Part shown: positions 26,062 through 34,515 of the stretch, in pieces | Layout of the letters: each line of letters begins with the position of its first letter | Numbering within the stretch: the first letter of the stretch is position 1 | From: Bacteroidetes bacterium QS_9_68_14 | Lineage (GTDB): Bacteria; Bacteroidota; Rhodothermia; Rhodothermales; Salinibacteraceae | Direction of reading: 5' to 3' | Assembly (NCBI GenBank): GCA_003022535.1 | Contig: PXTT01000064.1 | Location: forward strand, 1 to 55,893 | DNA: 55,893 nucleotides | The notes under the pieces: generated by a model | Told to the model about the DNA's origin: nothing | Seen by the model: only the letters and a program-made list of their open reading frames with translations | Databases searched by the model: none | Position numbers and translations under genes: made by a program

Positions 26062-27048
26062 TCACCCCGCCGCCACCGGCGCGCGTCGCCCGAGCTTCGG
26101 CGCGACGTCCTGCATGACGCGCCGCGCGTGCTCGCGCCCATTTTCGATGAACCAGCGACTCGTGTCGAGCCCGCCGGCGACCGTGCCGGCCAGGTAGAGC
26201 CCCGCCCGGTTCGTCTCGAAGGTGTCGGGGTCGTGAGTGGGGGTGCGCGTCGCGTCGTCCTCCACCGCGATGCCGAAGGCGTCGAAGAGATCGTAGTCGG
26301 GCCGGTAGCCGGTCATCGCCAGCACAAAATCGTTCTCGATCTCGAAGCGCCCCTCCGGCCCGCTGAGCACGACGCGGTCGTCGGTCACGCGCTCCACACC
26401 CGTCGAGAAGTGCGCGGCGATGGCGCCCTCCTCGATGCGGTTCTCCACGTCGGGGCGAATCCAGTACTTCAGCCCGTCGTCGAAGTCGTCTTCGAGGACG
26501 ACCATCGTGACTTCCGCGTCGTGGCGGTAGCAGGCCAGCGCCGCCTTCGCGGCGGAGTTGGCCCCGCCTACGACCAGCACCTTCTGGCCGGCGTACGGGT
26601 ACGGCTCCTTGAAGTAGTGCGTCACCTTGCCGAGGTCCTCGCCCTCGGCGCCCAGCGGGTTGGGCACGTCGAAAAAGCCAGTCGCCAGCACCACCTTGCG
26701 CGCCTCGCGCACAGATTTCTCGGTGACGAGCTGGAAGGCCCCGTCCTGCCCGTCCAGGCGCTCGGCGGACTCGTAGAGCGCGAGGTCGAGGTCCTCGGCG
26801 CGCGCCACGCTACGGTAGTAGTCGAGCGCCTCCTCGCGCACCGGCTTGTAGCGTTGCGTGGGAAACGGGTGCCCACCGATCTCCAGCAGCTCAGGCGTGG
26901 AGAAAAACTCCAGCCCCGTCGGGTAGCCGATGAGCGAGTTCACGACCGCTCCCTTTTCGACGACCAGCGCGTCGAGGTCGCGTTGCTTCGCTTCGATGGC
27001 GCAGGCCAGTCCCACCGGCCCGGCTCCCACGATGATGACGTCACGCAT
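26062..27048 (-). CDS. ypdA: YpdA-family putative bacillithiol disulfide reductase
   Basis: MRDVIIVGAGPVGLACAIEAKQRDLDALVVEKGAVVNSLIGYPTGLEFFSTPELLEIGGHPF...VLVVGGANSAAKAAL...AMTGYRPDYDL...LYLAGTVAGG. Confidence 0.92.
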   Translation of the reverse strand: MRDVIIVGAGPVGLACAIEAKQRDLDALVVEKGAVVNSLIGYPTGLEFFSTPELLEIGGHPFPTQRYKPVREEALDYYRSVARAEDLDLALYESAERLDGQDGAFQLVTEKSVREARKVVLATGFFDVPNPLGAEGEDLGKVTHYFKEPYPYAGQKVLVVGGANSAAKAALACYRHDAEVTMVVLEDDFDDGLKYWIRPDVENRIEEGAIAAHFSTGVERVTDDRVVLSGPEGRFEIENDFVLAMTGYRPDYDLFDAFGIAVEDDATRTPTHDPDTFETNRAGLYLAGTVAGGLDTSRWFIENGREHARRVMQDVAPKLGRRAPVAAG

Positions 27049-27144
27049 GGCGTGCCTTCGCTTGGCAAAAAACACCGTACGCTCCTTGCAACTGGCGGCG
27101 CGAAGCGGGGGTTTCTGCGCTTGGTGTGAAGGCAAAAGCGACGC

Positions 27145-29098: not shown

Positions 29099-29515
29099 AT
29101 GCCCACGGTCTACGCCACGCGCAAGGCGCACTTCAATGCGGCTCACCGCCTGCACAACCCCGCGAAGTCCGACGAGTGGAATCGGGAGGCCTTTGGCAAG
29201 TGCAACAGCCCGCACTTCCACGGTCACAACTACCACCTCGAAGTCACCGTCGCCGGGGCGCCCAGCGCGGAGCGTGGCTACGTCGTGGACCTCGGGGACC
29301 TGAAGGGCGTGATCCAGGAGCGCGTCCTCGAAAAAGTGGACCACCAGAACCTCAACGAAACCGTCGGCTTCATGGACGGGGTGCTGCCCTCTACCGAAAA
29401 CTTTGCGATGGCGATCTGGGACCAGCTCGACGGCCACGTGCCCGGGGAGGCGCAGCTGCACCGCGTGCGCCTCTACGAGACGGAGCGCAACTTCGTGGAC
29501 TACTACGGCGAATGA
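29099..29515 (+). CDS. 6-pyruvoyltetrahydropterin synthase-type enzyme (CX5HGH)
   Basis: HFNAAHRLHNP...AFGKCNSPHFHGHNYHLEVTVAG...VVDLGDLKGVI...VDHQNLNETV...STENFAMAIWDQL; CX5HGH motif resembles eukaryotic PTPS rather than CX3HGH QueD. Confidence 0.93.
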   Translation: MPTVYATRKAHFNAAHRLHNPAKSDEWNREAFGKCNSPHFHGHNYHLEVTVAGAPSAERGYVVDLGDLKGVIQERVLEKVDHQNLNETVGFMDGVLPSTENFAMAIWDQLDGHVPGEAQLHRVRLYETERNFVDYYGE

Positions 29516-29603
29516 GTAAGGGGGGCGAGAGCGCTTCGAGCAACGGGGCTGCTGGGCGAGAACCGTTCAACGTGCCACTTTCAGCTTTCAATCGCAACGC
29601 GCA

Positions 29604-30272
29604 ATGTCTACCAAAGAGCTTTCCGACGACCTTTCCATTGACGGGACCAATGGCGCGGTGCCCGACCCGGAGGAGTCGCCGCTCTACCGGCGGCGCGACA
29701 TCTACGACCGCGCCACGACCGAGGGCCTCGCCGACCACGTGGAAGGCACCCTCCGGCTCCTGAACGAAGACCCCGAGCGCTCGGGGCTCCAGAAGACGCC
29801 TGAGCGCGTGGCCAAGTCCTGGCAGTTTCTCACCCACGGCTACGCCAAAGACCCCGCGGCCATCCTCGAAGCGGCGATCTTCGAGGAGGAATATCCCGAG
29901 ATGATCTTGGTGAAGGACATCGAGGTCTTCTCGCTCTGCGAGCACCACATGATCCCGTTCTTCGGGAAGGCGCACGTGGCCTACATCCCCGACGGGCGCA
30001 TCGTGGGCCTCTCGAAGATCCCGCGCGTGGTGGACGTGTTCGCCCGCCGGCTGCAGGTGCAGGAGCGCCTGACGATCCAGATCCGCGACTGCCTCGATGA
30101 GGTGCTCGATCCGCAGGGCGTCGGCGTGGTCATCGAGGCGCAGCACCTGTGCATGATGATGCGCGGGGCCGAGAAGCAGAACTCCGTGACCACTACCAGT
30201 GCCATGGGCGGCCAGCTGATGGACACGACCACGCGCGCGGAGTTCATGCGCCTCATCAACGCGACGGACTGA
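29604..30272 (+). CDS. folE: GTP cyclohydrolase I
   Basis: [29 protein letters not shown]...[53 protein letters not shown]...[17 protein letters not shown]. Confidence 0.97.
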
Positions 30273-30378
30273 CCACGCGACGGACTGACCTTCGATTTTC
30301 GATTCCGGCGCTCCGGCCCAACAATCCCTGATCCCCCATCCCTCACTCGCTGGTTCCCAACGCGCAACTGCGAAGCCC

Positions 30379-30933
30379 ATGCCTGCGACCAAGGAACGCG
30401 AAAAGGCCACGCTTGCCGATTTTCAAGCCCTGCCGGAGGGGCCGCCCTACCATGAGCTTATCAGCGGCCAACTGATCGAAATGCCGTCGCCTACGCCCAC
30501 GCACCAGCGCATCGTCTTCCAGCTCGCTCGGCGCATGGCCGACTTCGCTGAGGAGCACGACCTCGGCGAGGTCTTCGTCGCCCCGCTGGACACGCACCTG
30601 ACCGACGAGGACGCCTACCAGCCGGACGTGCTCTTTATCTCCCACGAGCGCGCTGGTATCGTTGAGGAGCGCATCGAGGGCGCGCCCGATCTGGTCGTGG
30701 AAGTGCTCTCGCCCTCCACCGGCTACTACGACCTGACGGCCAAGCGCCGCGTCTATGCCGAGACCGGCGCGCGCGAGTACTGGATCGTCGACCCGATGGA
30801 AGAGACCGTCGAGGTGCTCACGCGCACCGAGGCGGGCGACTTCGAGAGCCGGGGCGCGTTGCCGAAAGACGGCGAGGCGGCCTCGCAAGTGCTGGACGGC
30901 TTCACCACGCGCCTCGCCGACCTGACGTCGTAA
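30379..30933 (+). CDS. Uma2 family endonuclease (DUF820)
   Basis: YHELISGQLIEMPSPTPTHQRIVFQLARRMADF...YQPDVLFISHERAGIVEERIEGAPDLVVEVLSPSTGYYDLTAKRRVYAETGAREYWIVDP. Confidence 0.94.
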   Translation: MPATKEREKATLADFQALPEGPPYHELISGQLIEMPSPTPTHQRIVFQLARRMADFAEEHDLGEVFVAPLDTHLTDEDAYQPDVLFISHERAGIVEERIEGAPDLVVEVLSPSTGYYDLTAKRRVYAETGAREYWIVDPMEETVEVLTRTEAGDFESRGALPKDGEAASQVLDGFTTRLADLTS

Positions 30934-31004
30934 CGGCGCGGGGCGCTTCTCGAAAAGCCGGCGTTGCCGACCCTCACACTCCTGCACCCAACCCGCCCCC
31001 AAAC

Positions 31005-31724
31005 GTGCCCACCGTCGTCGTCACCGGGGCGAGCCAGGGAATCGGCCGCGCCATTGCCGAAGGCTTCGCCCGCGAGTGCGCTGGGGCAAGCAACGCCGCC
31101 CGCCTCGCGCTCCTGGCGCGCTCGGAGGAGAAGCTCGAGCACGTGGCCGCCGCGTGCCGCGACGCCGGCGCGGCCGAGGCCGCCGCGCTGCCCTGCGACG
31201 TGACTGACGACGAGGCGGTCTTCGACGCCGCCGAGGCCGTCCGCGAGCGCTTCGGCGAGCCTGCGGTCGTCGTCAGCAACGCGGGCCGGTTTGAGCCGGG
31301 AGCGCTGCTGAACGTCGCGCCCGAGCAGTTTCGCCGCCAGGTGAGCGTGAACCTGACCAGCGCGTTCCTCGTCACGAAGGCGTTCCTGCCGGGCATGGTC
31401 GAGCAAGGGCGCGGGCACCTGTTCTACGTTGCCTCCATCGCGGCGCGCGTAGCCTACGCTGGCGGGGCGGCCTACGGCGCGGCGAAGGCGGGCCTCGCCA
31501 ACCTCGCCGGTGTGGCGCGCGAGGAGACCAAGCGCGAAGGCGTGCGCGTCACTACGCTCCTGCCGGGGGCCACGCGCACGCCCAGCTGGGAGGGCACCGA
31601 CCGGCCCGACGAGCGCTTCATGCCGCCGGCGGACGTGGCCGAGGCGCTCCTCAGCGCGTGGCGACTCTCGGAGCGCTCGGTCGTCGAGGAGATCGTCCTG
31701 CGCCCGCAGGAAGGCGACATCTGA
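31005..31724 (+). CDS. SDR family oxidoreductase, sepiapterin reductase-like
   Basis: TVVVTGASQGIGRAIAEGFA...VVSNAGRFEPGAL...ASIAARVAYAGGAAYGAAKAGL...PGATRTPSWEG...ERSVVEEIVLRPQEGDI*. GTG start. C-terminus recalls the Chlorobium sepiapterin reductase (from memory). Confidence 0.88.
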   Translation: MPTVVVTGASQGIGRAIAEGFARECAGASNAARLALLARSEEKLEHVAAACRDAGAAEAAALPCDVTDDEAVFDAAEAVRERFGEPAVVVSNAGRFEPGALLNVAPEQFRRQVSVNLTSAFLVTKAFLPGMVEQGRGHLFYVASIAARVAYAGGAAYGAAKAGLANLAGVAREETKREGVRVTTLLPGATRTPSWEGTDRPDERFMPPADVAEALLSAWRLSERSVVEEIVLRPQEGDI

Positions 31725-32022
31725 CCGGGGCGAGCCCGCCGGAGGGCCCGCGACCCCCGGCTGGCTCTCTGCTTTCCTTCGTCAATGCTTTACGGAGAGG
31801 GCCGTTGCCCTACGCCCGCTGGGTGCGGCCGCGGCCACGGCGTGATGTCGGGAGCGCGATGTCGGGCAGCCGTAGCAAGAGCCCGTAGCGAGCATGCGGG
31901 CGGAAACGTGACCTCCGGGTGAAATTCGGCGCTGTGCCCGCGCGTCCCGGCCAGCAAGAATCACGCGCGGGGGGGGCCTCCGTTGGCGCGGCGTGTCCGG
32001 TCGAGGCCTCCGCCTTATTTCG

Positions 32023-33306
32023 ATGGCTACTGAAGTGCGCTCTTTCATGGAGCTACGCGGCGAACAATCTACCGGAGGGATGACTTCGCCCGACGATCAG
32101 GCCGGACGGCGCCCGGCGGCACGAGCGTCCCGAGCGGGCCTTTCCCCGCCCGCGAACCGACCTCCGCAGGCCGGGCGCCGCCAGAAGCGTGTGGCCCTCT
32201 TTACCGGCGCCTACAACCACATCGCCGACGGCGTGTCGCTGACGCTTAACCGGCTGGTGGCCCACCTGGAGCGGCAGGGCGCGGCGGTGCGCGTCTTCGC
32301 CCCCACCGTCGAGGACCCGCCCGTCGACCACGCGGGAACGCTCGTGCCGGTGCGCTCGATGCGCGCGCCCGGACGCCCCGACTACCGCGTAACGCTGGGC
32401 CTCTCGCGCGCGGCGCGGCAGGAACTCCGGGCTTTTCGCCCGAACCTTTTCCACGTCGCCACTCCCGACCTCCTGGGCCGCTCGGCGCGCAAGTGGGCCC
32501 GCCGCTGGGGCGTGCCGCTGGTGGCCTCCTACCACACCCACTTTAGCTCGTATCTCAAGTATTACGGTCTCGGGCTCTTGGAGGGAGCGCTGTGGGCGTA
32601 CCTACGCCGTTTTTACCGCCCGTGCCGCCATATCTACGTTCCCAGCCCCTCGATGGCTGAGGTGCTGCGCCACCGCGGTGTGACCGGCGGGCTGCGACTC
32701 TGGCAGCGTGGCGTGGACACGACCCGCTTTCGCCCCGACCGGCGCTCGCTGGCGTGGCGCCGCGCGCAAGGCATCGGTGACGACGAGGTCGTCGTCTCGT
32801 TCGTGAGCCGCCTCGTTCGCGAGAAGGGACTCGGCGTCTTCACCGAGGTCATCGAGGGGCTGCGCGCCCGCGGCGTGCCCTGCCGCTGCCTCGTGGTGGG
32901 CGATGGCCCGGCGCGCGCGGACATGGAAGCGCGCCTGCCGCATACGGCCACCTTCACTGGCCACCTCGAGGGAGAGGCGCTCGCGCGTGCCTACGCCTCC
33001 AGTGACGTGTTTCTCTTTCCCAGCGACACGGAGACCTTCGGCAACGTGACCCTCGAAGCGATGGCCTCGGGGCTCCCCACCATCTGCGCCGACGCCACCG
33101 GATCGAGCACGCTCGTGGACGACGAGCGGACGGGCCTGCTGGCGCCCTCGGGCAACGCGCGTGCCTTTCTGGACGCCACCGCGGTTCTCGGGCGCATGGC
33201 CGGCTACTACGACGAAATCCTGAACCCGCACCGCGTGCACGCCTCCCGGCAGGCCGCTGGCGACGGGGCGGCTCGCGGCGAGCCGGCGCTCGCGGCCACG
33301 CCGTGA
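32023..33306 (+). CDS. Glycosyltransferase family 4 protein
   Basis: VALFTGAYNHIADGVSLTLNRLVAHLERQGAAVRVFAP...VASYHTHFSSYLKYYG...RGVDTTRFRP...SDVFLFPSDTETFGNVTLEAMASGLPTICADATG. Confidence 0.92.
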   Translation: MATEVRSFMELRGEQSTGGMTSPDDQAGRRPAARASRAGLSPPANRPPQAGRRQKRVALFTGAYNHIADGVSLTLNRLVAHLERQGAAVRVFAPTVEDPPVDHAGTLVPVRSMRAPGRPDYRVTLGLSRAARQELRAFRPNLFHVATPDLLGRSARKWARRWGVPLVASYHTHFSSYLKYYGLGLLEGALWAYLRRFYRPCRHIYVPSPSMAEVLRHRGVTGGLRLWQRGVDTTRFRPDRRSLAWRRAQGIGDDEVVVSFVSRLVREKGLGVFTEVIEGLRARGVPCRCLVVGDGPARADMEARLPHTATFTGHLEGEALARAYASSDVFLFPSDTETFGNVTLEAMASGLPTICADATGSSTLVDDERTGLLAPSGNARAFLDATAVLGRMAGYYDEILNPHRVHASRQAAGDGAARGEPALAATP

Positions 33307-33390
33307 GTAGCAACGCGCTGCGTTGCTGTGCCGGACGCAGGGCGTTTTTCTCTGCATCGCGCTCGAAGACCCGTCAAGCGCCCTCCGCCC

Positions 33391-34515
33391 GTGCGCCTGC
33401 TCTTCGTCTCGCACTCGTTTCCGCCGCCGGGGCGCCCGCTGGCGAACCTCGGCGGAATGCAGCGCGTGGCCGTCGAGCTGCACGAGGCGCTTGCCGCCCA
33501 TCCCGCCGTCGAACTGCGCAGCGAGCTTCTGCGCACCTCGTGGCGATGGACCCACTGGCGCACCGGGCCCTTCCTGGCGCGGGCCGCGTGGCGTCTCTGG
33601 CAGGCTGCCCGCCGCCGCGCGGTGGACGCGGTGCTCTTCTCCTCAATGGTCACAGCCACGCTGGCGTGGACGCTGCGCCGCGTCTTTCGGGAAAACGGCG
33701 TGGCCACCGGCGCCATCGCCCACGGGCGCGACGTGACGCTCGCGGTGGCGCCCTACCAGTGGATGCTCCCGCGCGTCTTCGCGTCGCTGGATCGCGTCTT
33801 TCCCGTCAGCCGCGCGACCGGCGAGGCGGCCCGCACGCGCGGCGCTGAGCGCGTGACGGTCGTTCCCAACGGCGTGGATACCGCGCGCTTCTCGGCGCCG
33901 GCGGACCCCCCGGCCGCCCGGCGCGAATTGCTCGACACGTTCGACGCGGAGCGGTCCGAGCCGGCCACGCTCCTGTGTAGCGTGGGGCGCCATGTGGAAC
34001 GCAAGGGCTTCGACTGGTTTGCCGAACACGTCTTGCCGCGCCTGCCGGAGGGCGTGTGCTACTGGATCGCCGGCGCCGGGCCGCGCACTGAGGCCCTCCG
34101 GTGCGCTGCGCGCCGGGCAGGCGTGGCCGGGCGCGTGCGGTTCCTGGGGCGCGTCTCCGAAGAGAACCTGCACCGCCTCTATCGCGGCGCCGACCTCTTC
34201 GTGATGCCGAACGTGCCCGCCCCCGAAGGCGACATGGAAGGCTTCGGCGTCGTCATGCTGGAGGCGGGCCTGAGCGGCCTACCGACGGTCGCTGCGCGGC
34301 TGGAAGGCATCCGCGACGTGATCGCCGAGGGGGAGAACGGGCACCTCGTTCCGCCCCGCGACGCCGAGGCGTTTGCCGCTGCCGTTCGCTGCTACCACGA
34401 CGGCGCGCGCGACCCCCAGGCGGCCGGCCAGCGCGCGGCGGCGTACGTGGAGCGCACCTTCGGCTGGGAGGCCGTGGCGGGCCGCTACGTCGAGGCGCTG
34501 GCGCGCGTGGCTTGA
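33391..34515 (+). CDS. Glycosyltransferase family 4 protein
   Basis: VRLLFVSHSFPPPGRPLANLGGMQRVAVELHEAL...VVPNGVDTARFSAP...ADLFVMPNVPAPEGDMEGFGVVMLEAGLSGLPTVAARLEGIRDVIAEGENGHLVPP. GTG start assumed. Confidence 0.92.
   Translation: MRLLFVSHSFPPPGRPLANLGGMQRVAVELHEALAAHPAVELRSELLRTSWRWTHWRTGPFLARAAWRLWQAARRRAVDAVLFSSMVTATLAWTLRRVFRENGVATGAIAHGRDVTLAVAPYQWMLPRVFASLDRVFPVSRATGEAARTRGAERVTVVPNGVDTARFSAPADPPAARRELLDTFDAERSEPATLLCSVGRHVERKGFDWFAEHVLPRLPEGVCYWIAGAGPRTEALRCAARRAGVAGRVRFLGRVSEENLHRLYRGADLFVMPNVPAPEGDMEGFGVVMLEAGLSGLPTVAARLEGIRDVIAEGENGHLVPPRDAEAFAAAVRCYHDGARDPQAAGQRAAAYVERTFGWEAVAGRYVEALARVA

Follow-up and report, generated by a model that had tools for sequence, protein, structure and literature searches.

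The locus and its genes

The window, a 55,893-nucleotide stretch, is contig C64 of the MAG of a halophilic, Salinibacteraceae-like member of the Rhodothermales (1.76 Mb, 76 contigs, 56% complete). Comparison was made with 60 Rhodothermales genomes, 43 of them near-complete; the named relatives are Rhodothermales and hypersaline Bacteroidetes MAGs. Four open reading frames lie on the forward strand between 29099 and 31724. They correspond to a PTPS homologue (29099–29515), FolE, i.e. GTP cyclohydrolase I (29604–30272), a Uma2-family, PD-(D/E)XK-like gene (30379–30933) and a sepiapterin-reductase-like SDR (31005–31724). An earlier note, made from the sequence, had placed PTPS, folE, Uma2 and the SDR here, and re-reading of the frames together with profile scans bore out all four. 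The profile scores and a gene order kept across the Rhodothermales exclude a chance origin of the gene set. No promoter or terminator was found by a scan of the 29099–31724 region. Elsewhere in the window, the reverse strand carries a YpdA-type putative bacillithiol disulfide reductase at 26062–27135 (TIGR04018, 429 bits).

The PTPS homologue

The protein encoded at 29099–29515 reads MPTVYATRKAHFNAAHRL and then FGKCNSPHFHGHNY, followed by the motifs DHQNL, STEN and YETERN, and it matched the Pfam PTPS family (PF01242) with 119.6 bits against a cut-off of 22.4. Members of COG0720 are often misannotated, and a motif rule has been described for them in which CxxxxxHGH denotes PTPS-II (biopterin), CxxxHGH denotes QueD and ExxHGH the folate type (PMC5041015). 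The window protein has CNSPHFHGH within FGKCNSPHFHGHNY, i.e. CX5HGH, which is the PTPS-II signature and not that of QueD. Its best matches in the PDB were human PTPS (112 bits) and rat PTPS (111 bits), compared with 35 bits for E. coli QueD. The QueD model TIGR03367 gave 71.7 bits, below its cut-off of 89.25, and neither of the two NCBIfam models scored the protein above its curated cut-off, a point against the biopterin reading.

As a likeness to rat PTPS is not a safe guide by itself, and proved deceptive in Synechococcus (PMC5041015), a phylogenetic tree was built. E. coli QueD, a Bacillus phage QueD, another phage protein and 13 Rhodothermales paralogues with CX3HGH formed one branch (99/98), and the window protein, its orthologues and the rat, human and C. 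elegans PTPS fell outside it. The QueD rows are long-branched and the alignment has few columns, and the finer forks of the tree were left unused. Judged from motif and tree, 29099–29515 is a predicted PTPS-II of the biopterin type, allied to the animal enzymes rather than to QueD, as the earlier note had supposed.

Variants of this enzyme were found among the relatives. In a Salinibacter subclade (G009, G013, G015, G020, G021, G022, G023 and G026; loci L005, L011, L016, L017, L019, L020, L084 and L219, G009 included) Asp stands in place of the catalytic Cys, in GKDNNPNWHGH or near variants (DX5HGH). Those members that were sampled fall together in the tree with support (100/95), and the PTPS-folE-SDR operon is intact in this subclade, which also keeps the genes for phenylalanine 4-monooxygenase (PAH) and pterin-4a-carbinolamine dehydratase (PCD). 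A third COG0720 paralogue, reading PNCGPENEWHSHHF with HSH replacing HGH, occurs mostly in Salinibacteraceae (L035, L037, L038, L040, L042, L044, L046, L050, L051 and L052) and forms its own set in the tree. Several Bacteroidia loci (L133, L138, L142, L143, L150, L151, L153, L168 and L169) carry a tandem PTPS pair, usually with folE next, and the two copies make up separate clades.

FolE and the folate pathway

FolE scored 241 bits with TIGR00063 (cut-off 181.6), 263 bits with NF006825 and 244 bits with PF01227. The gene is the only copy found in the host genome and encodes the single GTP cyclohydrolase I in nearly all Rhodothermales relatives; it must therefore also feed folate. The lack of a second GTP cyclohydrolase I in most of these genomes would also suit a reading of the whole cluster as folate synthesis, with the PTPS acting as a PTPS-III which bypasses FolB. 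We consider this highly improbable. FolB is present in 42 of the 43 near-complete relatives, so no bypass by PTPS is needed, and ExxHGH is missing, there being no Glu at the motif position of CNSPHFHGH; the PTPS-III bypass was rejected on these two grounds. Moreover, a reductase of the sepiapterin reductase type has no step in such a bypass.

The SDR resembles sepiapterin reductase of Chlorobium

The product of 31005–31724 is a classical SDR (PF00106, 155.5 bits) with the C-terminus VVEEIVLRPQEGDI. A single-sequence search of 597 PDB sequences returned the sepiapterin reductase of Chlorobium tepidum (2bd0) as the top match, scoring 124.5 bits where the runner-up had 105, and a profile made from 11 SDR sequences again put 2bd0 first (205.8 bits, next 155). 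An AlphaFold model of the SDR (mean pLDDT 91) had 2bd0 as its top Foldseek match, with a TM score of 0.91 and 35% identity over the structural alignment. By sequence, profile and predicted fold, the C. tepidum enzyme is thus the closest solved relative over the full length. The Ser-Tyr-Lys triad is kept, as is the C-terminal VVEEI(I/V)LRPxxGDI; the earlier note had pointed to a very similar C-terminus in the Chlorobium enzyme, correctly, since 2bd0 ends VVEEIILRPTSGDI.

Trp-196 of the C. tepidum enzyme, reported to be indispensable for substrate binding (PMC7520308), is matched in the alignment by Trp195 of the window SDR, an invariant residue. Phe-99 of its substrate pocket aligns with Pro98, and an invariant Phe96 lies two residues earlier. 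In a tree of SDRs, those of Rhodothermales and Opitutae made up one set (100/99). A weaker set adjoined it, consisting of 2bd0 and SDRs likewise located after PTPS-FolE in three further genomes, one of Ignavibacteriales, one of Bacteroidetes and one of an unclassified bacterium. A search of plasmids with the SDR gave generic SDRs only, at up to ∼35% identity. The matches to 2bd0, the kept Trp, the C-terminus and the place beside 2bd0 in the tree support the assignment of the SDR as a putative sepiapterin reductase of the Chlorobium type, in a family in which substrate specificity is hard to predict.

Conservation of gene order

PTPS was present in 58 of the 60 Rhodothermales genomes and FolE adjoined it in all 58. 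The SDR came next after PTPS-FolE in 49 of the 58, a count read from match coordinates with contig ends taken into account, which includes G038, where the gap is ∼2.3 kb, and G003, G012 and G041, in which the SDR is cut by the contig end. An SDR orthologue is placed elsewhere in the genome in G005, G029, G036, G040, G043, G050, G053, G057 and G059. All 43 near-complete genomes have an SDR orthologue scoring >300 bits, the next SDR reaching at most 166 bits, and >130 bits separate a complete orthologue from any other SDR. The predicted PTPS-II therefore co-occurs with the sepiapterin-reductase-like SDR both in the gene-order data and in the survey of SDR orthologues, and the family membership and co-conservation of the three products are plain. 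A divergent HIT gene is kept on the other side of the cluster in most loci.

The arrangement extends beyond the order. In Opitutae (L107, L113 and L122) PTPS is followed by FolE2 (GTP cyclohydrolase IB; PF02649, 236–241 bits) and then the SDR. This exchange of FolE for a non-homologous first enzyme leaves the same three steps, and so lends independent support to a reading of the cluster as a pathway. Gemmatimonadota have PTPS-FolE with a different SDR.

The Uma2 gene (30379–30933; PF05685, 132.7 bits) stands apart from this pattern. It lies between folE and the SDR in only the host genome and G008 (L058/L095, 77% identity) and is absent in the other aligned relatives. Uma2 is a local insertion, as the earlier note had claimed, a hitch-hiker with no part in the pathway.

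Two tandem GT4 glycosyltransferase genes follow the SDR at 31993–34515 on the forward strand, and among the loci checked the sister MAG G001 is the only other one where they accompany the SDR. There (G001:C58; L218/L223) synteny with the window takes in the SDR and the GT4 pair and ends exactly at the SDR start. Upstream of the G001 SDR no adjacent PTPS, FolE or Uma2 was seen, which speaks against a pathway reading of the cluster; ruvB-like and rpoN-like frames, recognised by eye, are found instead. As G001 and G002 are 62% complete, the absence of PTPS and FolE in G001 cannot be claimed as a loss.

Relation to queuosine biosynthesis

Strong QueC matches were found in 19 of the 43 near-complete genomes, and 12 of these 19 have a second paralogue of the CX3HGH type; the motif was read directly in several of the 12, and the rest were assigned from length, score and position by queC. 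The paralogue adjoins queC in several relatives (e.g. L047/L199). Neither QueC nor QueE was found in the 56%-complete host genome. A QueE-like protein without strong QueC occurs in the near-complete genomes G027, G030, G034, G036, G039, G040, G044, G046, G048, G049, G050, G054, G058 and G059.

Seven of the 19 genomes with strong QueC (G017, G025, G035, G038, G047, G056 and G057) have QueC and QueE without a CX3HGH QueD. At L189 (G035) queF, queC and queE lie together and the only PTPS in the genome is of the CX5HGH type, and L190 (G038) likewise has queC and queE with no CX3HGH QueD. These genomes favour an alternative in which the PTPS is the QueD of the lineage, making 6-carboxytetrahydropterin, or has a double role, with the SDR as a reductase unrelated to it. 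We regard it as improbable for the cluster as a whole. Nine near-complete genomes (G009, G013, G015, G018, G020, G022, G023, G043 and G051) lack strong QueC as well as QueE, yet keep PTPS, FolE and the SDR, and queuosine is therefore no explanation for the cluster. The separate CX3HGH paralogue beside QueC in several genomes also argues against it, as do the tree and the motif, which put the window protein with PTPS, and the loci examined, in which PTPS stands with folE and the SDR and never with queC or queE. In up to seven QueC-positive relatives lacking the CX3HGH protein, the PTPS may also serve queuosine.

The earlier note had proposed a pterin-cofactor cluster rather than queuosine or folate genes. 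The tree, the motif and the nine genomes without QueC and QueE uphold the core of that proposal, and its exclusive form has to be relaxed, folE being shared with folate and the PTPS possibly with queuosine in up to seven relatives. Of the two outcomes that the note had named as refuting it, neither was seen: the PTPS did not cluster with QueD, and the SDR lay beside 2bd0 in its tree. It had also raised the matter of separate que genes, for which the host MAG gave no QueC or QueE and the relatives a CX3HGH paralogue that is a neighbour of queC.

Users of the cofactor

The host genome encodes a PAH at G000:C17:11990–12682 (NF008877, 292 bits against a cut-off of 247) and a PCD at G000:C35:28532–28807. 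An aromatic amino acid hydroxylase, which the earlier note had suggested looking for, and PCD are thus present in the same genome as the cluster. Of the 43 near-complete relatives, 31 have PAH and 42 have PCD. The 12 relatives without PAH keep PTPS, FolE and the SDR; PAH can therefore not be the sole user of tetrahydrobiopterin (BH4), and was rejected as such, though it is likely to be one user among others. NO synthase was discarded as a candidate user, none being found in the 60 genomes. PCD is kept in 11 of the 12 PAH-less genomes (the exception is G048), a hint that some further step may depend on BH4 or that PCD may have an additional function. Where bacteria have FolM, PAH works with tetrahydromonapterin (PMC13259868), so the present lineage would differ by its use of BH4.

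The same 12 relatives and the lack of NO synthase in the 60 genomes could be read to mean that the pathway yields a reduced and perhaps glycosylated biopterin that serves mainly in photoprotection, signalling or redox chemistry and not with PAH; the L-threo-BH4 of Chlorobium, an anaerobic phototroph, is glycosylated (PMC5683033). Such a main role appears unlikely here, given that the host has both PAH and PCD. The GT4 genes at 31993–34515 gave a match at the generic level (∼32 bits) or none to BH4 glucosyltransferase, and beyond sister G001 the pair is not beside the cluster. They were rejected as pterin glycosyltransferases for these reasons, and a search for a dedicated pterin glycosyltransferase found none.

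A proposed route from GTP to tetrahydrobiopterin

The preferred reading, in which we have good confidence, is that 29099–31724 encodes a three-step route from GTP to BH4, with PAH as a user, PCD for recycling and FolE also serving folate; Uma2 is the hitch-hiker between the second and third genes. The PTPS tree, the SDR matches, the order-wide gene order and the presence of PAH and PCD all favour the complete pathway that the earlier note had put forward.

Catalysis, product, stereochemistry and use are drawn here by analogy with known relatives. FolE would convert GTP to dihydroneopterin triphosphate, and would feed folate too. The CX5HGH PTPS, with its zinc-binding HGH, catalytic Cys and Asp-His pair, would then remove the triphosphate and isomerise the side chain, yielding 6-pyruvoyl-tetrahydropterin. 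The SDR, with NADPH, would reduce the two side-chain ketones to give BH4, of which L-threo is the probable isomer, given an SDR of the Chlorobium type in which the equivalent of Trp-196 is retained. BH4 would be used by the host PAH and recycled via PCD.

A broader and more tentative interpretation is possible, though rather doubtful at present: the PTPS-II active site of this lineage may be unusually flexible, as in the subclade with Asp for Cys; the same enzyme may serve BH4 and queuosine where QueD is absent; and BH4 may be used beyond the known hydroxylases in the PAH-less relatives. The bacteria that make BH4, and its purpose in them, are poorly known. A compact, order-wide operon predicted to lead from GTP to BH4, in relatives which include culturable halophiles, would make both questions testable, and the Cys to Asp exchange in Salinibacter and the QueD-less queuosine genomes offer well-defined cases in which the tuning of PTPS chemistry can be tested. 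Among the papers searched, none of relevance linked Salinibacter with biopterin.

Comparison with known systems

QueD (PTPS-I) shares the family and the zinc motif with the window PTPS but differs in having CX3HGH for CX5HGH, in its separate supported branch and in its queC and queE neighbours. The BH4 route of Chlorobium tepidum is approached most closely through the SDR, with the likeness to 2bd0 in sequence and fold given above, the shared Trp-196 and the C-terminal (E)EIxLRPxxGD. However, Pro98 of the window SDR aligns with Phe-99, the invariant Phe96 lying two residues away, the host has PAH and no pterin glycosyltransferase was identified.

The animal BH4 pathway (GCH1, PTPS and SPR) comprises the same three steps, and the grouping of the PTPS, the CX5HGH motif and the presence of PAH and PCD are common to both. 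In contrast to the animal pathway, the genes described here are adjacent and on one strand, and the putative sepiapterin reductase is of the Chlorobium type, with another mode of substrate binding and probably an L-threo product.

The nearest precedent is the bacterial PTPS-II of COG0720, with ∼50 bacterial BH4 makers predicted (PMC5041015), with which the locus shares CxxxxxHGH and co-occurrence with sepiapterin reductase. It differs from that set in being an order-wide operon with folE, which has counterparts in Opitutae (with FolE2), Ignavibacteria and Gemmatimonadota (with another SDR). The assignment of the locus as a BH4 operon is well supported, and bacterial pathways of this kind have been described before.
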